A stretch of DNA of 32,071 nucleotides. It comes from a virus. Numbering within the stretch: the stretch's first letter is position 1; each line of letters begins with the position of its first letter. The stretch is taken from the IMG/VR virus record IMGVR_UViG_3300035127_000001, positions 1 through 32,071 of that record; one strand, 5' to 3'. The notes under the pieces are model-generated. The model had not been told where the DNA came from and did no database searches. It was given only the letters and a program-made list of their open reading frames with translations. Below, in pieces: positions 1 through 32,071 of the stretch. Both the position numbers and the translations under genes were made by a program.

Positions 1-1193
1 CACTTCAAAAAGAAGCCGCTGACCAAATAAAAGCAATTGAAGACCAAAAAGAAGCCGACGCAATCGAAGCCGCTAAAAAGAAAATGGAAGCGGACAAAGA
101 AGCCGCTGAAGCTGCGATTGAATTGGCAAGATTTGAATTAAGCGAATATATACGCGCGAATAAGTCGAAGCTTGATTCAGATAAATTCTTAACACAAGAA
201 GCGGTTGCAGAAGAAACGCGAAGGCTTGAAGCACTTGCCGAAAAGCGTCGGGAATATGAAGCTTTAAGACTTGAAGAAGGTCAGATTTCCCAGCTTGAAT
301 ATAATGAAGCTATTGCAACAATAAACGAAGAAAATCAAGCTTCTATTGACGAACTGAATCAAGCCAGAAAGGAAGCTGAAGCTGAACAAAGGGCAATCGA
401 CGCGGAAAACGAATTGATATTTCTGGAAGAACAAGCGTCAACGCAATTTGAAGCGTTAAGCAGAAGACTTGAAAACGAACGTTTGGCTGAAATAGCCAAC
501 GCCGAAAAGACTGGGGCTGACATAGATAAAATAAATCAGAAGTACGCGCAAAGAAAACAGAATCTTGACGAATCCGTAAAGACCGCGCAACTTCAAGGAA
601 CGCAACAAACGCTTGACGCCGTTTCTTCGGCTTTAGGAGAACAGACAAAAGCGGGGAAAGCCGCCGCGATTGCTTCGACTTTAATTTCGACCTATCTGGG
701 GGCGCAACAAGCTTTTACTTCTTTGTCTTCTATTCCTATTGTCGGAACTGTTTTAGGAGTTGCCGCCGCCGCCGCCGCTGTTGTTTCTGGTTTATCAAGG
801 GTAAGCAAGATAAGAAGCACCCCAGACAAATATTCAAAAGGAGACATTTTAAGGGGGCGAAGTCATTCACGGGGCGGAATACCTTTTTCAATTGCTGGGG
901 GTCTTGGTTTCGAAGCTGAAGGCGGCGAAGCTTTAATCAATAAAAAATCAACTTCAATGTTTGCGCCTTTGCTTTCTGCGATTAATGTTGCTGGCGGCGG
1001 AAAGAAATTCGCTGACGGTGGAATTGCTGGCGCAACTTCAAGTTTAAGTTCGAAATCATTAATTGATTACGACCTTCTTTCGTTAAGAATAGCAGAAGCA
1101 AACACGACATTACCCGCGCCAGTTGTAAGCGTAGAAGAAATAAACACAGTTAACAACAATGTAAGTGTTATCGAAACGCTTGCAACGTCTTAA
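1..1193 (+). CDS. Tail tape measure protein, 3' part (allele A)
   Basis: This is the C-terminal part of the tape measure protein, which sets tail length and sits in the tail lumen. The reading frame is open from base 3, so the gene begins outside the linear window and the first Met (84) is internal. The protein is a long charged coiled coil rich in Glu, Ala, Lys and Gln, then an Ala/Gly-rich hydrophobic stretch (about 640-800), then a conserved end containing GRSHSRGG and GGEALINKKS. It aligns with the gene at 29830-32071 at a constant offset of 31108, and joining that gene at 31108 to base 1 keeps frame (2472 nt, 823 residues). Allele A differs from the other end mainly in residues encoded by about 436-620. 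Downstream is a small membrane protein gene. The assignment is firm for the family; the junction is inferred. Confidence 0.88.
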   Translation, partial: LQKEAADQIKAIEDQKEADAIEAAKKKMEADKEAAEAAIELARFELSEYIRANKSKLDSDKFLTQEAVAEETRRLEALAEKRREYEALRLEEGQISQLEYNEAIATINEENQASIDELNQARKEAEAEQRAIDAENELIFLEEQASTQFEALSRRLENERLAEIANAEKTGADIDKINQKYAQRKQNLDESVKTAQLQGTQQTLDAVSSALGEQTKAGKAAAIASTLISTYLGAQQAFTSLSSIPIVGTVLGVAAAAAAVVSGLSRVSKIRSTPDKYSKGDILRGRSHSRGGIPFSIAGGLGFEAEGGEALINKKSTSMFAPLLSAINVAGGGKKFADGGIAGATSSLSSKSLIDYDLLSLRIAEANTTLPAPVVSVEEINTVNNNVSVIETLATS

Positions 1194-13497: not shown

Positions 13498-14217
13498 ATG
13501 GGTTTCGAATTCGACAAGACACAAATGACAATCATTGAAATTCTAAACGGGACGGTTAAAGATATTCGCGAAAATATTGACCTTCTGGCAAAAGACTACA
13601 AAGCGAAAACAGGAAGGGACGTTTGTCGTTCTTGTCCTTCGGACATTCAATACATGATTTTATCACTTAAAAATTTGTATAAAATGACACAGTTTAAATT
13701 TAAACGTCATGCCGCTATGTATAAAAACAAGAAGGGCGACAAGGCGACAATTTCGAACGCCACAATGACGGACGAAAAAGCGATTGAATTCTTACGGACT
13801 AATCCTGAAAGAATCAAATTATTTTCAGATTACCCTTCAAACTGGGAACAACTTATAATTGACGGCGTTGATTCCGAAACCGCTGAAGAAAAAGAAGCCC
13901 GCCTTGCCGCTGAAGCTGAAGCGAAAGCTGTTGCTGAAGCTAACAAAAGTAAGGAAGAAGAAACAACAGAAGAAGCCAAAACCGACGAAAACGGTCAAGG
14001 TTCTGTTGAAGAAGAAAAGGCTGAAGATACTGGCGAAACTGACGCTGAAAAAGAAGCCCGCCTTGCCGCTGAAGAAGCGGTTCAGGGAAACGCGGCAAGT
14101 GAAGAAAAGCCTTCGCGCGACGAATTAATGAAAATGCAATTAAAAGACTTGCGCGTTAAATACCCAGATATTAAGGCAACGAACATAAAAGACTTTGTTG
14201 ACAAAGTTCTTGCCTAA
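13498..14217 (+). CDS. Virion-associated protein with acidic repeat linker
   Basis: 239 residues in three parts. The N-terminal 115 residues are a helical domain with RDVCRSCPSDIQYMILSL and WEQLIIDGVDS. The middle (about 127-200) is a low-complexity Ala/Glu/Lys linker with two copies of EKEARLAAE encoded by an identical 28-bp repeat. The C-terminal 35 residues (LMKMQLKDLRVKYPDIKATN) look like a small SAP/HeH-type helix-extended-helix unit that could bind nucleic acid or protein. Position among head genes suggests a capsid- or neck-associated protein. The exact role is unknown. Confidence 0.62.
   Translation: MGFEFDKTQMTIIEILNGTVKDIRENIDLLAKDYKAKTGRDVCRSCPSDIQYMILSLKNLYKMTQFKFKRHAAMYKNKKGDKATISNATMTDEKAIEFLRTNPERIKLFSDYPSNWEQLIIDGVDSETAEEKEARLAAEAEAKAVAEANKSKEEETTEEAKTDENGQGSVEEEKAEDTGETDAEKEARLAAEEAVQGNAASEEKPSRDELMKMQLKDLRVKYPDIKATNIKDFVDKVLA
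13888..14074 (+). repeat. 28-bp direct repeat inside the linker
   Basis: An identical 28-bp unit (beginning GAAAAAGAAGCCCGCCTTGC) occurs at 13888-13915 and 14047-14074, 159 bp apart (53 codons, in frame). Recombination between the copies would delete 53 codons without a frameshift. Confidence 0.8.
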
Positions 14218-18757: not shown

Positions 18758-21211
18758 ATGATTTTAATTAATTCATACGACGAAAAGCACTTCACAATTG
18801 ACGGCGTAATGTTTGCGAAGATTTATCAACCATTGGCGCAAGGTTCACAAGGTATCGGAATTTATTCGATATATGACACAAAGCAAAGGCTTGTTAATTC
18901 AACAAAATACACAGAATTTTCAATTGACGGTAAAACTTACAGCACACAAGAAGCCACTATTTCGGCGATTCTTGCTGTTACTTGGTACGCTTTAAGTGAA
19001 AGCGACATTGAAGTTCTTTCAAACAGAATCGACAACATTGAAGAAAACCAATACACGGGCGTTGTTGTTTATGAAACTTTGGCTGAACTTCCTGTAACTG
19101 GGACGTTGCTTGTTTCTTATAAAGTTTCAAACGATTCGACTTCTTCAAATAATGGTTATTATCATTGGAACGGTTCGGCTTACGTAAAGGACGCAAGTCT
19201 TGTTTTATCTGAAATCGACCCGACAAATGAAAGCGAAGCACTTTCAGCGGCGGCAACTGACAGGTTTGTAAATAGAACGATATTGCCTTATAATTCCCGC
19301 TTTAATTCCGATACACCTGTAACGTTGTCAACGGCTGGCGAATTTGCAATAACTGTCGGAACTGGGAACTTGTATTTGTACGAAACGAACGCGCTTAGAA
19401 TCGAAAATACAGTTGCGGCGAACTTCGTTCTTGCAAATACTACAATCTTAGACGGTAACGACGGACAAACTTTATATTATAAGTTTTACGCGAAATGGAT
19501 TTCAGGAAGCAAGAAACTTTTTATTAGTGCTGGCGACACAGCCCCCGAAAGTGATTACACGGACAAGGTTACACTTTCAAGCGATTATCAGCTTTTCGAA
19601 GGAAGCGTTGAGGTCGGAACTGTTTACGCTGACAGGTTAGCGTTCTTGATTGTTGGCGCGGTTGCTGAAATAGCAATCAAAGACTTTCAAGTTCTTATTG
19701 ACGAACAAGGTTTCGGCGTAGGTGAACAGGATTTGCAGCAAGTTCAACTTCAAGTTGACGCTTTGAACGAAGAAATATTTGACGAAAATATTGTTCCTTC
19801 AGATTCAAGGTTTAACGAAGACACAAACATTGACGGAACGAATATAGGTGTTTTTGAATTTACGCTTGGGGCTGCAACCGTTGACGAAATCGCAATTGAA
19901 CAGGAAGGCGTAAAAATCGACATAACTGGAACGGGCGGGAATGTGAATTTCAACGATACTTCGATAATATCTTCAATTACAAACGGGAATGAAGTTCATT
20001 GTCAGTTCAAAATTAAATGGCTTGAAGGGAATGACAAGCTTTATTTTGCTGTTACAACTTCAACAACTGGCGCGGTTCAGATTGCACATTCGACAAGTTG
20101 GCAAATAGTGAACGCAAAATTGACAAAGGGTACAGAATACCCGAATCGCGTTGCTTTCTTCTGGGCTGGTACAACTGGAAAACAAACAGTAATTATCAAA
20201 GATTTAGTAATTGACGACACAGAAATTGTTTTCGGGGAAATAAGTAAGCTTAAAGACAGAGTTGACATAATTGAAACGCAAATCGGGATTGAAGACCCAG
20301 AAACGGAAAGCTTGAAGGTTTCAATTATCGGGGATTCAATTTCGACCGCTTCTGATAACAACGCCGTTGAAATTGAAGTTCTTTCTTCTGACGTAGGCGG
20401 AACAATTGAAGCTTATGTAACAAAATACGACGTTGACGCGGGCTTAACAATTGGCGGTTATACAGTTCAATCTTCAGACATTGGAGTTCTGAAGACATTT
20501 AGCCCCGATTCTGGCGACATTGGGAAGGTTGTCGGAAAGCCTTTGAATTATAATGCACTTACACAAAATCAACTTTGGTGGGGAATACTGGCGGAACGAA
20601 AAGGCTGGGAAATACTTCAAAATGTTTCTTGGTCTGGGGCTTCGATTAGTTCACACGAAGGAAGTATTGAACAATATAAAACGTCTTACGCGTGGCATCC
20701 AGCGCAAATAAACAAATTACAGAAGCGAAACGACGCGGGGGTTTACGAAACGCCTGACTTGGTTATTGTTTATCGCGGGACAAATGACTTCAGTCATACG
20801 CCCTACGCAAAATTAACTTCGTTCGACGCTTCTGAAACTGAAATTCCTTCTGACGACATTGTGAATGTTTCTGATTATGGTTACAAGGAAGCCTTGACGC
20901 TTTTGGTTAAAACTATACGCGAAACTTATCCTTTGGCTGAAGTTGTTCTTTGTACGCTGAACGTTTTTAAGCGTGTTGTTTACGACCATTTTCCAACACG
21001 TAACGGAACGAACACGCTTCCAGAATTCAACAACGCAATTCGTGAAGTTGCGAATCAAATGGGTTGTCGTTTGATTGAATTTGACAAAGACGGAATAACA
21101 TTCGAAAATGCTTATCCGACTTATATTTCGGATTCTGCAACGATACCAACACACCCGAACGCAACGGGTCATTCGAAAATGGCTGAAAAAGCAATCATTG
21201 ACTTATCATAA
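18758..21211 (+). CDS. Tail fibre/spike with SGNH hydrolase domain
   Basis: 817 residues. The N-terminal 80 residues start MILINSYDEKHFTIDGVMF, like the 16240 gene, and may anchor to the virion. Two jelly-roll-like modules follow at about 171-320 and 343-494; the second is closely related to a module in the gene at 26467. The C-terminal 300 residues are an SGNH/GDSL hydrolase: GDSIS with catalytic Ser527, a Gly block in SWSGASIS, GTND at 674-677 and HPNATGH with His799. The Asp normally three residues before this His is replaced by Ile796. Such domains de-esterify surface polysaccharide, so the protein probably binds and modifies host glycan during adsorption. It sits between holin and endolysin. 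Confidence 0.82.
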   Translation: MILINSYDEKHFTIDGVMFAKIYQPLAQGSQGIGIYSIYDTKQRLVNSTKYTEFSIDGKTYSTQEATISAILAVTWYALSESDIEVLSNRIDNIEENQYTGVVVYETLAELPVTGTLLVSYKVSNDSTSSNNGYYHWNGSAYVKDASLVLSEIDPTNESEALSAAATDRFVNRTILPYNSRFNSDTPVTLSTAGEFAITVGTGNLYLYETNALRIENTVAANFVLANTTILDGNDGQTLYYKFYAKWISGSKKLFISAGDTAPESDYTDKVTLSSDYQLFEGSVEVGTVYADRLAFLIVGAVAEIAIKDFQVLIDEQGFGVGEQDLQQVQLQVDALNEEIFDENIVPSDSRFNEDTNIDGTNIGVFEFTLGAATVDEIAIEQEGVKIDITGTGGNVNFNDTSIISSITNGNEVHCQFKIKWLEGNDKLYFAVTTSTTGAVQIAHSTSWQIVNAKLTKGTEYPNRVAFFWAGTTGKQTVIIKDLVIDDTEIVFGEISKLKDRVDIIETQIGIEDPETESLKVSIIGDSISTASDNNAVEIEVLSSDVGGTIEAYVTKYDVDAGLTIGGYTVQSSDIGVLKTFSPDSGDIGKVVGKPLNYNALTQNQLWWGILAERKGWEILQNVSWSGASISSHEGSIEQYKTSYAWHPAQINKLQKRNDAGVYETPDLVIVYRGTNDFSHTPYAKLTSFDASETEIPSDDIVNVSDYGYKEALTLLVKTIRETYPLAEVVLCTLNVFKRVVYDHFPTRNGTNTLPEFNNAIREVANQMGCRLIEFDKDGITFENAYPTYISDSATIPTHPNATGHSKMAEKAIIDLS

Positions 21212-21215
21212 AATT

Positions 21216-21704
21216 ATGAAAATCAGAAATAAATTCAGTTTCGGAAATACAAGCCAACAAAGAAGAAAAGGCGTTTCAAGGTATTTGATTTTAGCTTCAG
21301 ACCGCGCTTTGATGTGTTCACCTGTTGACTTCGGCGTTCCTATGGACGGCGGCGTCCGTGAAGCAAGTCGTCAAAATTGGATATTCAAACAGAAATGGTC
21401 TAAGTGCGACGGATATATAAAGAAATCATTTCACCAAAAGAAAGACGAAAACGGCGAAGGTCAAGCCCTTGACCTAGTTCCTTATATTGTTGGCGAAGGT
21501 CTTTGTTACGACGCTTTAGGTCGCTTCGGTGTTATTGGAATGTTAATGCTGGAAGCTTGGCAAGAATTACAAGAAGAAGGCAAGGTTCCAAAACATTTAT
21601 ATTTGCATTGGGGCGGACTTTGGAAGAAGAAAAAGAATAAAAGTCTTGGCTGGGATTTAGCACATTTTGAAATTCGGGAATATGAGCAAACAGAACAAGT
21701 TTAA
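21216..21704 (+). CDS. M15 peptidase endolysin
   Basis: 162 residues from the ATG at 21216 (5 bp after the fibre stop); longer in-frame starts overlap the fibre gene. The motifs of phage M15 peptidases are clear: DFGVPMDGGVR at 38-48, SKCDGY at 62-67, SFHQ with His73, GQALDLVPY with Asp86, and WDLAHFEI with His150; these three residues bind zinc. The enzyme cuts the stem peptide of peptidoglycan after the holin opens the inner membrane. No signal peptide is present, which fits holin-dependent export. It overlaps the small terminase gene by 23 bp. Confidence 0.88.
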   Translation: MKIRNKFSFGNTSQQRRKGVSRYLILASDRALMCSPVDFGVPMDGGVREASRQNWIFKQKWSKCDGYIKKSFHQKKDENGEGQALDLVPYIVGEGLCYDALGRFGVIGMLMLEAWQELQEEGKVPKHLYLHWGGLWKKKKNKSLGWDLAHFEIREYEQTEQV

Positions 21705-24022: not shown

Positions 24023-24436
24023 ATGTATGAAATATTAAAAGCTTTGGCAACGTCAAACGGCTGGGTCTTCGAATACGGACGACACGACTTTCAAAATCTT
24101 TTTAAAGCCGCTGAACAAAAAAATGTTTCTCATATATTTTTAGACCCTGTAAAAATCAGGGATATTGACAACGATTCGGGAATTACTGAAAAGAAAGTTT
24201 ATTCGGGTTCATTTATGATTCTTTTTTCTTCAGACATTGACGAACAGGATTACGATACGAGGTATCAGAATTATATTAAGCCGATTGTTTCGGGCGACCT
24301 TAAAACGATTAAAGACGAAATTCGTTGCGGTTACGACGTTGTGTTTGATTTATGGGAAACAACAGAAGTCGTAAATATATTCGATTACAATTTCGACGGT
24401 CTTATTTGTACTTATCAATTGACAATTGACGAATGA
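24023..24436 (+). CDS. Hypothetical small neck/tail protein
   Basis: 137 residues with a mixed alpha/beta pattern: MYEILKALATSNGWVFEYG, a strand HIFLDPVKIRDIDND, a KVYSGSFMILFSSD strand, a helix-like YQNYIKPIVSGDLKTIKDEI and final strands (VNIFDYNFDGLICTYQLTI). The size, the final ICTYQLTI strand and the position before the 157-residue gene fit a tail terminator/completion-type protein of siphoviruses, but no family is recognised. The stop overlaps the next start by 4 bp. Confidence 0.52.
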   Translation: MYEILKALATSNGWVFEYGRHDFQNLFKAAEQKNVSHIFLDPVKIRDIDNDSGITEKKVYSGSFMILFSSDIDEQDYDTRYQNYIKPIVSGDLKTIKDEIRCGYDVVFDLWETTEVVNIFDYNFDGLICTYQLTIDE

Positions 24437-24906
24437 CAGACCAAGAAGTAATAAAAGAAGAAATTGACGCTATATTAAGCGACATTTTGACGGTTTACGA
24501 ACAGTCTGGAAGGAAAGCTTCAGGGCAATTCGCCGAAGGTCTTGAAGCGATTTATTCGCCTTATCAGGCGACAATTCGCGGTTATGTTTATTTAGCTGGT
24601 CGCGGAAAAACGAAGAAGAAAGGAAAGGCGGGCGAACCGACACTTCAGCAATCAATTTTAAAATGGTTGCAAGTAAAAGGAATCAAGGCAATTGAAAGAA
24701 ATATAAGTCAAAAAAGTCTTGCATTTTTAATTGCTAGAAAAATACATGAAGAAGGAACGAACCCTTCTGAATGGTTAAGAATTTACGAACAAGTGATTAC
24801 GCCTGAAAGAATTGACAGAATTATTGATAGGGTTTCACAATTGAACGTGAATAGGATTATAACACAAATTAACGCCGAACTTGAAATTCTGGCTAAAAAC
24901 GTTTAG
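24433..24906 (+). CDS. Hypothetical neck/tail completion-like protein
   Basis: 157 residues, basic and helical in the N-terminus (QEVIKEEIDAILSDILTVYEQSG). A middle segment, YVYLAGRGKTKKKGKAG, and a helix SLAFLIARKIHEEGTNPSEWLRIYE are reminiscent of gp10/HK97-type completion proteins in which IARKIHEEGT is common. The final helix includes VNRIITQINAELEILAKN. It lies in a row of small genes before the large tail-tip genes. Function by position only. Confidence 0.52.
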   Translation: MTDQEVIKEEIDAILSDILTVYEQSGRKASGQFAEGLEAIYSPYQATIRGYVYLAGRGKTKKKGKAGEPTLQQSILKWLQVKGIKAIERNISQKSLAFLIARKIHEEGTNPSEWLRIYEQVITPERIDRIIDRVSQLNVNRIITQINAELEILAKNV

Positions 24907-24909
24907 ATT

Positions 24910-26463
24910 ATGGCTATTACATTAACAAAAGAACCTTACGGGATTTATCCAGCTTATAACGATTCATTTATTGAATTTACGTCGGATTTGCCAGACAATT
25001 ACAAAGCTGAAATAACTGTTTACCCAGTTGAAAAATTCCCGCGCGTATTCGTTATTTATCCAGACGAAAACGGCGTTTATTTATTCAATCTTAAAGAATC
25101 AGTAAAGGCAATATTCAACGAAAGCGGATTTGAAGACGACAATTATTTTACAGATTCGTATTATAAAACAATAGCGGGTTTATATCTTGAACAAAGTATT
25201 CAAGTTAAAGTCATTGGCGTTTCTGGGTCTGTTGAAGATGTTATTCCAGCGGGTTCAGAATTGGACGAAAACACGACAACAAACGGGACAATTGCGGGAA
25301 TATGGCAAATAAGATACCCGAATGCAAATAATTACATTGAAAAGTTAACTGACGAAGCTGAAGACTATTTCAAAATATCAATTAACCAAGACGGAGGAAC
25401 AAACCCTTCTTTATGGTCGATAAATGACTTTGACCCAGAATTAAGAGGGCGAAATATTAATCTTCGCGTATGGATTAAAGGCGACGCTTCTGGTGCTGTT
25501 AGATTAAATACAGACGGGAACAAAATTGTTTTGAATTTTACCGATACATGGCAGCAAATAAACACAGCGGTTGTTTTTGGTTCTTCATTTGGGGATATGC
25601 GTTTTCAATTTTACCTTCAGTCAACAAGTACGGTGTTTTATTTAAAGCAAATAGAACTTATTCAAAGCCTTGAAAATGAATTTGTAACAAAGGTTTACGA
25701 CTTCTTCAAGGCTGTTAAACAGATTGGCGAACCTATTCACGAAAACAATTATCAATTATTGTCATATTCGCCAGACGGAATAAATCACGACTTGACTTAT
25801 TTCGAAGGTTTTCCGTTTCATTTTGATATTCAGCAAATCGAAAGCGGAAAAACTGTAAAGGTAAAGAACTTTAATACTGGGAATGAATCTGAAGGAATGG
25901 TTTCAACAGGAAAGGAAGCTTTCAGAATTAACATTGACAGGGGCGGTCGTAATAATTGGACGTTTGACAATTTCCTTCCTTTAATTGTAGGATTGAACAG
26001 GCTGGGAATTTACGAAGGTTCAACTTTTAAGGCGAATGTTTTCTTGCGCAAAAAGAAAAATTGTTCAGGAATTTATTTAAAATGGTTTAACAGGAACGGC
26101 GGCTTCAGTCATTACTTGTTTGACGAATATTATATCAGACAATTAAAAGGTTCTGACATTGGAAAAGTAACGAACAATGAATTTAAAAACATTGGAGAAT
26201 CAACAAGTAATTATAAAAGCATTGGAAAGACGGCGGCGGGAACTGTAAACGTTAAAACAAAATATGAATCTTATGACTATGAACTTTTAAAAGACATTTT
26301 TGTCAGCCCTTTGGTTCAAATGTTTACGGCAACTGAAGCTTATGTTGAAGGTCGATTCATTGACGTTTTTGTTGACGGTGTAATTTCATTTAGTAATAAA
26401 AAGTCAAAAAATGAAATAGCGTTGACAATTGATTTGCCAGAAGTACAAACCGCAAAACTTTAA
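24910..26463 (+). CDS. Tail/baseplate protein with jelly-roll-like module
   Basis: 517 residues, beta-rich. Residues about 1-80 open with LTKEPYGIYPAYNDSFIEFTSDLP, a strand-rich domain; about 130-260 form a jelly-roll-like carbohydrate-binding-module layout (FKISINQDGGTNPSLW, RGRNINLRVWIKG, TDTWQQINTAVVFG, VFYLKQIELIQS). The last part has FLPLIVGLNRLGIYEGSTF and a Lys/Asn-rich end similar to tail-tip proteins of Bacteroidetes phages. It precedes the 1115-residue tail protein by 3 bp, so they are likely neighbours at the tail tip. Binding to host glycan is possible. Confidence 0.6.
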   Translation: MAITLTKEPYGIYPAYNDSFIEFTSDLPDNYKAEITVYPVEKFPRVFVIYPDENGVYLFNLKESVKAIFNESGFEDDNYFTDSYYKTIAGLYLEQSIQVKVIGVSGSVEDVIPAGSELDENTTTNGTIAGIWQIRYPNANNYIEKLTDEAEDYFKISINQDGGTNPSLWSINDFDPELRGRNINLRVWIKGDASGAVRLNTDGNKIVLNFTDTWQQINTAVVFGSSFGDMRFQFYLQSTSTVFYLKQIELIQSLENEFVTKVYDFFKAVKQIGEPIHENNYQLLSYSPDGINHDLTYFEGFPFHFDIQQIESGKTVKVKNFNTGNESEGMVSTGKEAFRINIDRGGRNNWTFDNFLPLIVGLNRLGIYEGSTFKANVFLRKKKNCSGIYLKWFNRNGGFSHYLFDEYYIRQLKGSDIGKVTNNEFKNIGESTSNYKSIGKTAAGTVNVKTKYESYDYELLKDIFVSPLVQMFTATEAYVEGRFIDVFVDGVISFSNKKSKNEIALTIDLPEVQTAKL

Positions 26464-26466
26464 GAA

Positions 26467-29400
26467 ATGGCTGAAAGTTTATTTTTAAACAAAACGAAAA
26501 TTGATATTTACGACAAGCCAATAACGCGGCGAATTCAAATCGGCGAAGTTACAAGCATGACGGAAAGAAAGTCTTCATTTTCATACACGATTAAGATTCC
26601 GAAAACTTCAAGAAACAAAGCTTTTTTTGAAATGCTTGGAACGATGGGGAATACAAGTCGCAAGCCTTACGAAGAAGTTCTTGCAGACTATGTTGTTGAC
26701 GGTGTTTATCTTGTTTCGAATGGTTATGCAATTATAAGGGAATCTTCAGGAGAAGACTATCAAATAAATTTAATTGACGGAATCAGAAGCCTTTCAGAAT
26801 TATTAAAAGACAAGAAGCTTTCAGATTTGCCGCTTGAAGATTTAAACCATATTTTAACAACACAAAATTACATTGACAGTTATTCAAATAAGGAAGGGTT
26901 TATTTATGCGATTGCGGACTTCGGGCGCGGCGTTTCTTCAGCGATTAAAGTTGAAAAACAAGCCCCGTCAATATTTACACATACTTTGTTCAGAAGGATA
27001 TTTGAAGCGAACGGACTAACGTTGCAAGGTGAATTCTTTACAACAAATGAAAAGTATTTAAATGAAGTTTTGACGCCTTCACGCGGTTATACTTTAGAAT
27101 ATTCGTCAGTAATATCAGAAGACAAAGGCGGAACGACTTCGAACACGGTTTCAGAATATGAAACTTCAAACGAATATTTGACACAAACTGAAAAAATTAC
27201 ATTAGTTAACAACAGTCTTGTCGGTGCTTCAATATCAGACGGCGAAATATTGTTTTCTGTCGCTGGAACTTATAGGCTTGACATTGCTGTTGATTACAAT
27301 CTTTATGAAACATACGCTTCGATTATAGTTAAAAAAAATGGTTCAGCTATAAGTTACATAAGCTTATTAACGGACGAATATTCAAAAACAAAAAAGATTG
27401 TGTTTTCGGTTAGTGCTGGCGACAAAATTTCGGTTTATATCACTGCAAGTTCTTACTATGATTACTATTATCAACAAGAAGGCGGCTATCAATATTATAC
27501 TTTGAATTATAGTGCAAGTATTATTTCGACTTTATATTTGCAAACAGGCGGTCAGGTAATTAGCCCGATTGACTATATCGGTGAAATGAATCAACTTGAC
27601 TTTCTGAAGGACGTTATCAACAGATATGGTCTTGTTTTGCATCCAGTGCAAAATACAAATGAGTTTAAATTTAAACGAATTGAAGCCTTGCTTTCTGATA
27701 GGGCAACGGCTGAAGATTGGTCTTCAAAATTAGTTTCGATTGATTCTGAAGATTATGTTTCGGGATATGCGAAAACAAACAAGGCTTCGTTTAAATACGA
27801 CGAATCAATTGTTGTTCCGACGAATGACGGTGAATTATTAATTGATAATGTAAACGCTGAAAGTGAAAAGACAATGTTTACAAGTCCTTTTGAAATTCCA
27901 GCGAAAGGAACGTCTTTATCTGGTAATTCAGTTTATAAAGTTCCTATCTGGGGCGAAGAAACGCAAACAGAAACGGAAGTTGAAACGCAATTGACTGAAG
28001 ACGGAATTGGAAAGCCAGCAATTTTAAAAACAGACGGTACCATTGAAATTGTGAACCTTGTTCCTTCGGATTCAAGATTTGATTCAAGCACGGTAATTGA
28101 CGGAACGGACATCGGTGTATTTTCTTTTAATTTAGGCGAGGCAAATGTAAATTCAATAGTTATTCAAGAAGGCGGAATAAAAATTGATATTACTGGAACT
28201 GGCGGGAATGTCATGTTTTCGGACACTTCAATAATTTCAGGAATTACAGTCGGGAACGACGTTCATACGAAGTTCAAAATTAAATGGCTTACAGGTTCGG
28301 CAACGATGTACTACGCTGTTACAACTTCAACTTCTGGGGCTTTATCAATAACACCTTCGACCGAATGGCAAGAAATAGACGTGAAGCTTCCAAAAGGTTC
28401 GGCTTATCCGAATAGGGTTGCGTTTTTCTGGGCTGGCGTTTCTGGTCAACAAACTGTTATCATAAAAGATTTGATAATTGACGACACGGAAATTGAAGAC
28501 AGAATCGAATATAAATTTTTAAATATAGATTTAGAAAATAAAACCTTTAAGGCTTCAGGACGCGTCAGAACTTCAGACAATGCTTTTGTTTGCTTTTATG
28601 ATTCTGACGACAACTTTATTTCATATCAGGGCAAAGGGTCAGGGTCAAATTTTGATTACACAAAAACAACGCTTTACCCGCCGTCAAATACAAGAACGAT
28701 AAGAATTTCGGGTTCGATTGACGTTGAACCAGAATTGTACTATTATGAAGATATACAATACACAACGGCGGTCAATGAAGAAACGGCTTTAAAAGTAATG
28801 TATATTGAAAGACACAACCTTTCAATTAATGCGAAGTTATTCGACGAATCAACAGGCGTTTCGGCAAGTGAAGACATTCCTTTTCTTGGTATTGAATTTA
28901 TGACAATGCAATATTTTTTGAATGTGTTTTATAGTGCCTTTCAGAATTTAATTGAAAACTACAAGAAAATGACATTCACAATCAATTTATCTGTTATTGA
29001 CATTTTTAATATTGATTTCTTTAAGCTTAAATTCCTGAAGCAAACAGGTCGTTTTTATTATCTTAACGCAATACAGAACACGCAAGGGAAACCGTCAAAA
29101 GTTGAAATGATTGAAATAAAAGAATTTCCTTCAAACAAGCCGCCGACGCAAATCGGAAACTTTTCTTTTAATATGCAAAGACTTGCAACGCGGACAATTA
29201 CCTTGAATAATTTAAAAACAGGTTATGAAGACCCAGAACTTGACGAACCTTTAAAAATCAAGATAATTGACGGATTCAATTCAAATGTATTATTGAAACA
29301 AGACGGCGTAACAATTACCGAAGAAACTGAAATATTAGCTTCTGAATTAGCGTTGACGGCTGTTGAAGTTCTTGGGGGTGTTGACGACTATGTTGAACAA

Positions 29401-29814
29401 TGGTCTTTTACAATTGCTGACAAAGGAAGCGGGACTTATCCCGAATTAACTGGAATATTAACCGCGAATGTTCTTGAATATACTAATTACGCGCCAAATG
29501 CTAACGCGGGCGAAGACAACACAGTATATTTGACGCCGCCTGAAGTTTATTCAGCCCCGTCTTATATTCAACTGAACGGTTCGGCTTCAAATGACAGTAC
29601 GGGCGAAATAGTTTCTTATGCTTGGGAAATATTATCGAAGCCAACGAATTCAGACGCGACACTTTCAAGCGAAAGCGGAACGATTGTAAGTTTGATTGTA
29701 ACAAACGACGAAGAAAACGTCGGCGTTTATGAATGTCAATTGACCGTAACTGACGAATTCGGATTGACTGACACAGACACGGTCAAAATAACTTGTTTAA
29801 TTAATTATGAATAA
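26467..29814 (+). CDS. Large tail-tip protein with binding module and PKD domain
   Basis: 1115 residues. The N-terminal about 200 residues (RRIQIGEVTSMTERKSSFSY, IPKTSRNKAFFEMLG) look like a tail hub/baseplate domain used in Bacteroidetes phages. A beta-rich region with YDYYYQQEGGYQYYT follows at about 335. At about 528-678 is a jelly-roll-like module closely related to residues 343-494 of the SGNH fibre. The C-terminal 110 residues (1008-1115) are a PKD/Ig-like domain: NANAGEDNTVY, IQLNGSASND, IVSYAWEI and LTVTDEFGLTDTDTV. It is likely the tail-tip adhesin that contacts the cell surface; the tape measure gene follows 15 bp later. Confidence 0.68.
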   Translation: MAESLFLNKTKIDIYDKPITRRIQIGEVTSMTERKSSFSYTIKIPKTSRNKAFFEMLGTMGNTSRKPYEEVLADYVVDGVYLVSNGYAIIRESSGEDYQINLIDGIRSLSELLKDKKLSDLPLEDLNHILTTQNYIDSYSNKEGFIYAIADFGRGVSSAIKVEKQAPSIFTHTLFRRIFEANGLTLQGEFFTTNEKYLNEVLTPSRGYTLEYSSVISEDKGGTTSNTVSEYETSNEYLTQTEKITLVNNSLVGASISDGEILFSVAGTYRLDIAVDYNLYETYASIIVKKNGSAISYISLLTDEYSKTKKIVFSVSAGDKISVYITASSYYDYYYQQEGGYQYYTLNYSASIISTLYLQTGGQVISPIDYIGEMNQLDFLKDVINRYGLVLHPVQNTNEFKFKRIEALLSDRATAEDWSSKLVSIDSEDYVSGYAKTNKASFKYDESIVVPTNDGELLIDNVNAESEKTMFTSPFEIPAKGTSLSGNSVYKVPIWGEETQTETEVETQLTEDGIGKPAILKTDGTIEIVNLVPSDSRFDSSTVIDGTDIGVFSFNLGEANVNSIVIQEGGIKIDITGTGGNVMFSDTSIISGITVGNDVHTKFKIKWLTGSATMYYAVTTSTSGALSITPSTEWQEIDVKLPKGSAYPNRVAFFWAGVSGQQTVIIKDLIIDDTEIEDRIEYKFLNIDLENKTFKASGRVRTSDNAFVCFYDSDDNFISYQGKGSGSNFDYTKTTLYPPSNTRTIRISGSIDVEPELYYYEDIQYTTAVNEETALKVMYIERHNLSINAKLFDESTGVSASEDIPFLGIEFMTMQYFLNVFYSAFQNLIENYKKMTFTINLSVIDIFNIDFFKLKFLKQTGRFYYLNAIQNTQGKPSKVEMIEIKEFPSNKPPTQIGNFSFNMQRLATRTITLNNLKTGYEDPELDEPLKIKIIDGFNSNVLLKQDGVTITEETEILASELALTAVEVLGGVDDYVEQWSFTIADKGSGTYPELTGILTANVLEYTNYAPNANAGEDNTVYLTPPEVYSAPSYIQLNGSASNDSTGEIVSYAWEILSKPTNSDATLSSESGTIVSLIVTNDEENVGVYECQLTVTDEFGLTDTDTVKITCLINYE

Positions 29815-29829
29815 TAAAATATTGTAGAT

Positions 29830-32071
29830 ATGCCAGAACAAGTAAATATTGCAAGCTTAACGATTAACGTTGACGACGTTATCAAAGAAAGTGTTCGACT
29901 TCAAAAGGAAATCGACAAGGTAAAAAACGCGCAAAAAGACCTTGACCGTACAACTGAAGAAGGGGCGGCGGCTTACGCGAAGTCTGAAGCACAATTAAAG
30001 AATTTGAATAAAGCTTACAGGGACAATCAGAACTTCGCGGCGGCTTTAGATGCTGCAAACACAGACCTAACAAAGACAATGCAAGTTCAAGGTAAGTCAA
30101 CGCAAGAACTTTACGACAGCCGACGTCAACTTCAGCAAATTGCGAAAAACATTGCAGGGGACACAGAAGAAGAAATTCAGCTTAGGGAACAATTAAACAC
30201 AGCCATTGACGAACAAACAGAAGCTTTGCGCGGTCAAAGTGCTGAATTTATTCAGGGAAAAGATTCAATTGGGGAATATACGAAAGGAATCAACGCTTCT
30301 GATTTAAGTCTTCAAAATATTATTACGGCTTCTTCTGAAGCTGGCGGCGCGACAAATCTTTTGAAGGGTGGATTGAAAGCCGCTACTTCTGGAATGATGG
30401 GATTTATTAAAGCTTCGCTTGCATTTATAGCAACGCCCGTTGGGATTGTTCTTGCTGCGATTGCTGGCGCGTTCTTATTGATTAAAAATGCAATGCAACG
30501 GAACGAGGAAACAATGAACAAAGTTAAAACGGCGGTGTCTGGCATTACTGGCGTTTTTAAAGGTTTGTTAAAATTCCTTGAACCGCTTGGGAAATTCCTT
30601 GTTGACGGACTTGTAAAAGGTTTTGAATTAGTTGAAAAAGGAATATTTAAAACAATGCAAGCCCTTGAAAAAGGTCTTCGTCTTGTAGGTCTTGACAAAG
30701 CCGCCGACAATCTTCACAACTTTACGGCGGCAATTGAAGAAACTGCAAAGGCAAACAAAGAACTTACGCTTGCTGAATTAGAATACACAAAAGCGCAAAG
30801 GCAAGCAAGAAAGACGCAACTTGAATATCAGAAACAAGCCGAAAAGCTTCGTCAAGTTAGGGACGACGAAAACAAGTCGATTAAAGAACGTATTGCAGCA
30901 AACGAAGAACTAGGAAAGGTTTTGAACAAACAGTTGAACGAAGAACTTGCACTTGCACAAAAAGCCCTTGACGTTGCGAATCTTAGAATTAAAGTTGAAG
31001 GCGAAACAACCGAAGCACTTGACGCCCGCGCCGAAGCTGAAACTGAAATTGCAGACATTCAAGAACGAATAACAGGTCAAACTTCTGAACAATTAACGAA
31101 TCGTGTTGCACTTCAAAAAGAAGCCGCTGACCAAATAAAAGCAATTGAAGACCAAAAAGAAGCCGACGCAATCGAAGCCGCTAAAAAGAAAATGGAAGCG
31201 GACAAAGAAGCCGCTGAAGCTGCGATTGAATTGGCGCGGTTTGAATTAAGTGAATATATTCGGGCGAACAAATCAAAGCTTGATTCAGATAAATTCCTGA
31301 CACAAGAAGCGGTTGCAGAAGAAACGCGAAGGCTTGAAGCACTTGCTGAAAAGCGTCGGGAATATGAAGCTTTAAGACTTGAAGAAGGTCAGATTTCCCA
31401 GCTTGAATATAATGAAGCTATTGCAACTATAAACGAAGAAAATCAAGCTTCAATTGACGAACTAAATCAAGCAAGAAAGGAAGCTGAAGCTGAACAGAAG
31501 GCAATTGACGCGGAAAACGAATTGATATTTCTTGAAGAACAAGGGAATAAAACCTTTGAAGTTATGCAACGGCGGCTTGAAATGGAAAAAGAAGCCGAAA
31601 TTGCAAACGCTGAAAAGACTGGGGCTGATATTGACAAAATAAATAAGAAATACGCCCAACGTGAAAAGCTTCTTCAGGATTCTATTTCAGACGCTAAACT
31701 TGCGGGTTTTCAATCGGTGTTTGATTCATACGCTTCAATTCTTGGGGAACAAACAAAAGCAGGGAAAGCCGCTGCGATTGCTTCAACATTAATTTCAACA
31801 TATCAAGGGGCGCAACAAGCTTTCACTTCGTTGTCAGGTATTCCAGTTGTCGGAACGGCTTTAGGTATTGCGGCGGCGGCGGCGGCTGTTGTTGCTGGTA
31901 TTCAGCGCGTGAATAAAATTAGAAGTTCGCCTGATAAATATTCAAAAGGGGATATTTTACGGGGAAGAAGTCATTCACGGGGCGGAATACCTTTTTCAAT
32001 TGCTGGGGGTCTTGGTTTCGAAGCTGAAGGCGGCGAAGCTTTAATCAATAAAAAATCAACTTCAATGTTTG
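29830..32071 (+). CDS. Tail tape measure protein, 5' part (allele B)
   Basis: The gene starts MPEQVNIASLTINVDDVIKE and runs off the window after 747 codons. Order: N-terminal coiled coil (29830-30300), a hydrophobic membrane-active segment (MMGFIKASLAFIATPVGIVL, then AGAFLLIK) near residues 190-220, a second coiled coil, and the C-terminal part that aligns with 1-963. Joined to 1-1193 the protein has 823 residues, predicting a tail of roughly 120 nm at about 1.5 angstrom per residue. Together with the absence of a sheath gene this points to a siphovirus. Allele B differs from A mainly in residues encoded by 31540-31730 and in the hydrophobic stretch. Confidence 0.9.
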   Translation, partial: MPEQVNIASLTINVDDVIKESVRLQKEIDKVKNAQKDLDRTTEEGAAAYAKSEAQLKNLNKAYRDNQNFAAALDAANTDLTKTMQVQGKSTQELYDSRRQLQQIAKNIAGDTEEEIQLREQLNTAIDEQTEALRGQSAEFIQGKDSIGEYTKGINASDLSLQNIITASSEAGGATNLLKGGLKAATSGMMGFIKASLAFIATPVGIVLAAIAGAFLLIKNAMQRNEETMNKVKTAVSGITGVFKGLLKFLEPLGKFLVDGLVKGFELVEKGIFKTMQALEKGLRLVGLDKAADNLHNFTAAIEETAKANKELTLAELEYTKAQRQARKTQLEYQKQAEKLRQVRDDENKSIKERIAANEELGKVLNKQLNEELALAQKALDVANLRIKVEGETTEALDARAEAETEIADIQERITGQTSEQLTNRVALQKEAADQIKAIEDQKEADAIEAAKKKMEADKEAAEAAIELARFELSEYIRANKSKLDSDKFLTQEAVAEETRRLEALAEKRREYEALRLEEGQISQLEYNEAIATINEENQASIDELNQARKEAEAEQKAIDAENELIFLEEQGNKTFEVMQRRLEMEKEAEIANAEKTGADIDKINKKYAQREKLLQDSISDAKLAGFQSVFDSYASILGEQTKAGKAAAIASTLISTYQGAQQAFTSLSGIPVVGTALGIAAAAAAVVAGIQRVNKIRSSPDKYSKGDILRGRSHSRGGIPFSIAGGLGFEAEGGEALINKKSTSMF
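31109..32071 (+). repeat. Terminal overlap with 1-963 (two tape measure alleles)
   Basis: This stretch and 1-963 align end to end with no net indel. Bases 1-127 equal 31109-31235 and bases 859-963 equal 31967-32071; between them the copies differ in many positions, densest around 436-620. Best explained by circular closure of a genome of about 31.1 kb that exists in two variants. A true long tandem duplication is a less likely alternative. Confidence 0.9.

Follow-up and report, generated by a model that had tools for sequence, protein, structure and literature searches.

Why should the two ends of a viral sequence record carry the same portion of a single gene, and why in two versions that agree at their edges and are heavily diverged in between? 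The question is posed by IMG/VR record IMGVR_UViG_3300035127_000001, which was analyzed here over its entire length of 32071 bases (the window). Our answer is an assembly seam at a strain polymorphism, combined with ordinary phage mosaicism. Very probably, the window contains a siphophage-like, circular-mapping genome once around (31,108 bases), followed by 963 bases of a second allele, with the circle having been cut by a de Bruijn assembler at a strain variant.

The End Overlap and the Tape Measure Gene

Positions 1-963 pair with 31109-32071 in a gapless alignment at an offset of 31108, with 151 mismatches (84.3% identity; 1078 bits by BLAST), and a repeat scan returned this pair as the sole long repeat in the window. 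The mismatches are unevenly distributed, with 0 in 1-127, 19 in 128-423, 132 in 424-858, and 0 in 859-963. Were they scattered at random, the chance of a clean first 127 bases would be 7e-11 and that of a clean last 105 bases 5e-9. The initial annotation had described a constant offset of 31108 with exact matches of 127 and 105 bases at the ends, and the gapless alignment agrees in each respect.

Read through the junction (29830..31108 plus 1..1193), the two ends form one tape measure protein (TMP) frame of 2472 nt, encoding 823 residues and free of stops with either allele, which bears out the earlier claim that the junction preserves a frame of this length. The product is large, contains long helices as well as hydrophobic segments, and matches PHROG 1538 and PHROG 3336 (tail length tape measure), and its gene sits among tail genes. 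The relevant features are as follows, with allele A denoting the copy at the start of the contig, allele B that at its end, and L003 a separate, related phage.

1..127, plus strand: contig start; these 127 bases recur exactly at 31109-31235 and are interpreted as the common k=127 vertex in the assembly graph
3..1193, plus strand: C-terminal half of TMP, residues 428-823, allele A; homologous to the TMP of L003 (5001-7472)
about 128..191, plus strand: first diverged patch of allele A, synonymous changes only
424..858, plus strand: main replaced tract of allele A, TMP residues about 568-713, 70% nucleotide identity to allele B
859..963, plus strand: final 105 bases of the overlap, matching 31967-32071 at the contig end exactly
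29830..32071, plus strand: N-terminal part of TMP plus allele B, residues 1-747; PHROG 1538, 3336
31109..32071, plus strand: allele B copy, overlapping 1-963
31532..31966, plus strand: segment of allele B that corresponds to the replaced tract, nearer to L003 than is allele A

The divergence was originally described as mostly silent in the first third, with a single Arg/Lys change, followed by about 55 largely replaced residues. The single change is there (R/K at TMP residue 557, the only one before 572), but the silent differences are patchy: after the 127 identical bases, 10 synonymous changes are clustered at about 128-191, beyond which come identical runs of 47 and 80 bases with one mismatch between them. 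A replaced part likewise exists, although it is longer and less complete than had been supposed, with 29 of 66 residues differing in TMP 572-637 and 10 more in 659-700; over the whole overlap, 40 residues differ between the alleles.

According to profile matches, the plus strand elsewhere in the window carries genes of head, portal, terminase, and endolysin, and the minus strand those of nuclease and topoisomerase. Comparison of window positions 10400-32071 with 50,697 phage records (megablast) gave no match, and a 29-base exact pattern from the shared part of TMP was not found in viral_contigs. A search of GTDB genomes returned no relative of the TMP, and therefore no prophage or host is named. 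Directly 3' of the TMP gene lies a plus-strand open reading frame of 130 residues (1240-1632) without a family match, a counterpart of which was not found in the locus of L003 or of a second relative, L004. Positions 26467-29814 encode a 1115-residue protein with a PKD domain at its C terminus; its homologues comprise 962 residues in L003 and 856 in L004, so that its length varies among relatives. The gene at 18758-21211, the 817-residue product of which has a GDSL lipase/acylhydrolase domain toward its C terminus, adjoins the endolysin gene (21108-21704), and a 239-residue gene without a family match contains a 41-base repeat, 88% identical, at 13875-13915 and 14034-14074.

Closure of the Circle

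An overlap of this kind could also arise if the window were a linear fragment of a genome in which part of the TMP gene had been duplicated in tandem and the copies had diverged afterward. Both copies are literally on the contig. However, the window begins and ends within a gene in one frame, and 0 differences in 127 plus 105 flanking bases are unexpected beside a tract in which synonymous change is saturated. L003 (contig of 29063 bases) has only one TMP, the gene for which is likewise exactly 2472 nt long, and L004 has one of 878 residues. Upstream of it, both carry homologues of window tail genes 24910-29814 (L003 also of 24023-24906), and downstream both carry minus-strand homologues of window open reading frames within 1710-2906. 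The same neighbors, drawn from both ends of the window, thus flank a single TMP, and gene order is continuous through the seam.

The contig that carries L004 (G002; IMGVR_UViG_3300028920_000211, 29538 bases) adds a further line of evidence, as its own ends overlap exactly by 127 bases (1-127 of L074 and 2374-2500 of L075), the length of the identical run at the start of the window. This overlap lies inside a homologue of window gene 24433-24906, and G002 probably represents a whole circular genome of 29411 bases, opened at a different place than the window. Taken together, the single TMP in both relatives and the exact 127-base overlap of G002 make a k=127 cut at a strain variant far likelier than a tandem duplication, which we regard as highly improbable. 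The proposal that the window closes into a circle is therefore upheld by the overlap, the restored TMP frame, and the single-copy TMP with continuous gene order in L003 and L004.

Phages with terminal repeats are known, and 963 bases falls within a usual length range for these. Such repeats are copied from each other during replication and stay identical, whereas the ends of the window differ. Furthermore, the ends fall inside the TMP gene, and on a common circular map the cuts in the relatives lie at other positions, that of L003 at a third place. That the overlap represents real terminal repeats that have diverged from one another is accordingly exceedingly improbable.

Two other records have matching ends. 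IMGVR_UViG_3300001278_000003 has an exact end overlap of 49 bases (L076/L077) and is probably a circle from an assembly that used a different k; two open reading frames, of 182 and 665 residues, share its TMP (L058). The ends of IMGVR_UViG_3300031951_000607 (L082/L083) share 70% identity across 1206 bases, in several registers, a pattern more like that of a repetitive gene than of closure.

Origin of the Assembly Seam

De Bruijn assemblers break contigs at positions with multiple paths, and metaSPAdes and MEGAHIT leave end overlaps of maxK (COBRA; PMC10914622). In one genome, assembly had ended short of circularization because the join existed in two sequence variants (Chen et al.; PMC7111523). 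The latter study gives end overlap lengths as n or n-1, and the two sources disagree by one base in the overlap (k or k-1) that they assign to each assembler.

In the window, 127 exact bases are followed immediately by a mismatch at 128, which, with the exact 127 bases of G002, fits k=127. The earlier suggestion of a variant bubble at this k is thereby strengthened, and 127 was probably the largest k used for this assembly. Two strains, presumably both present in one sample, would share the same sequence on both sides of the seam and differ in TMP versions diverged over about 430-730 bases. The contig would begin at the last 127-mer common to both, and the assembler path would run through allele A, around the circle, back to the starting 127-mer, and into allele B until the path stops. 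At the contig end, the terminal identity is 105 bases rather than 127. A vertex at which the alleles merge again at k=127 would occupy 859-985, so that the contig stops 22 bases short, at a vertex covering 837-963. This early stop may reflect a loss of coverage in the B strain or another branch, at its base 964.

Among nine contigs checked, a second record with an imperfect end overlap turned up. The first and last 709 bases of IMGVR_UViG_3300049595_000705 (G009; L088/L089) are 92.8% identical, with long exact runs at both ends, and this, too, is probably a circular phage genome cut at a strain variant. The overlap lies in an unrelated 223-residue gene, the family of which is not assigned, and the seam effect is thus not peculiar to TMP.

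Probable Recombinational Origin of the Replaced Tract

The replaced tract had been described as positively variable, a description that the substitution pattern contradicts. Over overlap codons 141-286, dS is 1.53 and dN 0.22, giving a dN/dS of 0.14; over codons 43-140, dS is 0.34 and dN 0.004; and in the flanks of the overlap both are essentially 0. In sub-windows of 10 codons, dN/dS does not exceed 0.86 where computable, and several others have saturated dS. Positive selection on the tract is ruled out by this saturation and by the dN/dS of 0.14. Saturated synonymous change together with so low a ratio instead points to an imported, diverged homologue under purifying selection, and the unchanged 127 and 105 bases on either side form the sharp boundary expected of recombinational import.

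Comparison with L003 separates the two alleles. The long flanks of TMP are the same in A and B, both being 66-69% identical to L003 at the nucleotide level. Within the tract, nucleotide identity is 70% between A and B, 70% between B and L003, and 60% between A and L003, and at the 40 residues that differ between the alleles, L003 shares that of B at 18 and that of A at 4. Allele A is therefore as far from B as B is from a separate phage, which indicates that one of the alleles holds an imported segment. The claim that a segment within the TMP coiled coil has been recombined is supported in this way, and import by homologous recombination with a related phage seems the most likely route; the identical flanks would serve as anchors, and their identity suggests that the exchange was recent. 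B is probably the resident type, with the tract of A coming from a lineage beyond L003, although the direction of transfer is deduced from these comparisons. A search with the tract only found no close relative in viral_contigs that might be the donor of the A tract (best about 47% amino acid identity), and the same search with the B tract found a moderate relative, L058, at 42%.

In the tract, the alleles (70% nucleotide identity) differ as much as separate phages do, as would be seen if another phage species in the sample had the 127-mer in common and supplied one of the contig ends. However, A and B agree fully once more in the 105 bases that follow the tract, as well as over runs of 47 and 80 bases in the first third; between L003 and allele B, by contrast, identity reaches only about 64-73% in most TMP segments. 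A mosaic strain fits such long identical runs better than a separate species, and we consider a chimera very unlikely.

Restriction of the variation to a defined tract might also call to mind programmed hypervariation of TMP by a diversity-generating retroelement or an invertible cassette. Against this, all 12 types of difference are present and adenine is not favored, the window holds no copy of the tract outside the overlap and no long inverted repeats, and no reverse transcriptase or invertase family match was found among the proteins searched. The absence of adenine bias, of a separate template repeat in the window, and of a reverse transcriptase match among the proteins searched leads us to reject the retroelement, and the absence of long inverted repeats the cassette, such that the probability of any programmed mechanism is practically negligible.

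Structure and Possible Role of the Segment

AlphaFold2, run with a four-row alignment, predicts helices at TMP residues 524-597 and 601-638, with pLDDT mostly 75-90. Hydrophobic helices C-terminal of 601-638 are predicted with less certainty, and the hydropathy peak lies at about 664-677. In this model, the replaced tract would be mainly a helical coiled-coil hairpin directly before the C-terminal hydrophobic helices.

The TMP of phage HK97 is said, in work attributed to Cumby et al. in 2015, to act in genome entry with an inner-membrane protein. By analogy, the membrane-proximal region of the TMP described here could face host-specific selection, and it is plausible that the tract would serve in passage through the membrane or in matching the host.

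Recurrence in Other Clades

An independent clade (L012, L013, L015, L016, and L021) has TMPs of about 764 residues that are roughly 86-94% identical. Synonymous divergence is saturated in residues 401-560 between the TMPs of L012 and L016 and in residues 481-560 between those of L012 and L013, with pS of 0.7-1.2 in these tracts and mostly 0-0.5 elsewhere. The left ends of the two tracts differ, and the right ends both fall just before the conserved motif GEQTKAGKA (residue 564), although many of the recurrence loci were found via peptides containing this motif. In the window, the dense part of the A/B divergence ends at TMP residue 637 and GEQTKAGKA is at 639. Judged from these alignments, the same coiled-coil segment has been swapped at least twice in the L012 clade. 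In a third cluster (L026/L032), identity dips less strongly ahead of GEQTKAGKA, and the N terminus diverges more.

The 12-kb loci of L012, L016, and L021 have regions besides TMP replaced, too. As other genes are also mosaic, any claim of a hotspot is restricted to within TMP, where the pattern gives a modest hint of one. A further scan for TMPs of the L012 type found almost nothing beyond the records already collected. It is conceivable, though we think it unlikely, that in this phage group the pre-membrane coiled coil is a hotspot ending at GEQTKAGKA, of which alternative versions coexist to match a host envelope or inner-membrane factor at DNA entry. Because an independent clade has exchanges at this same site, the idea of a TMP hotspot is open to testing.

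Comparison with Known Systems

In a large study of phage mosaicism (PMC10684548), TMPs were over-represented by a sequence-based measure, and recent cases in TMP were not confirmed. The window resembles what was found there in that mosaicism lies within TMP, and differs in that its alleles have identical flanks, marking a recent exchange, and in that the swapped parts are still homologous (about 70% at the nucleotide level). It thus provides a clear example of a tape measure gene in which an internal segment was exchanged recently.

As in the cases described by COBRA (PMC10914622) and Chen et al. (PMC7111523), a circular genome has been cut at a graph branch, with an exact k-length overlap and variants at the join. 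In contrast to those cases, the second allele is here on the same contig, and the overlap is imperfect (963 bases, 84%). A simple test for exact terminal repeats would miss the circle. Where the cut falls on a diverged allele, complete circular phage genomes may be overlooked because their ends match only imperfectly, and two haplotypes may be fused in one record.
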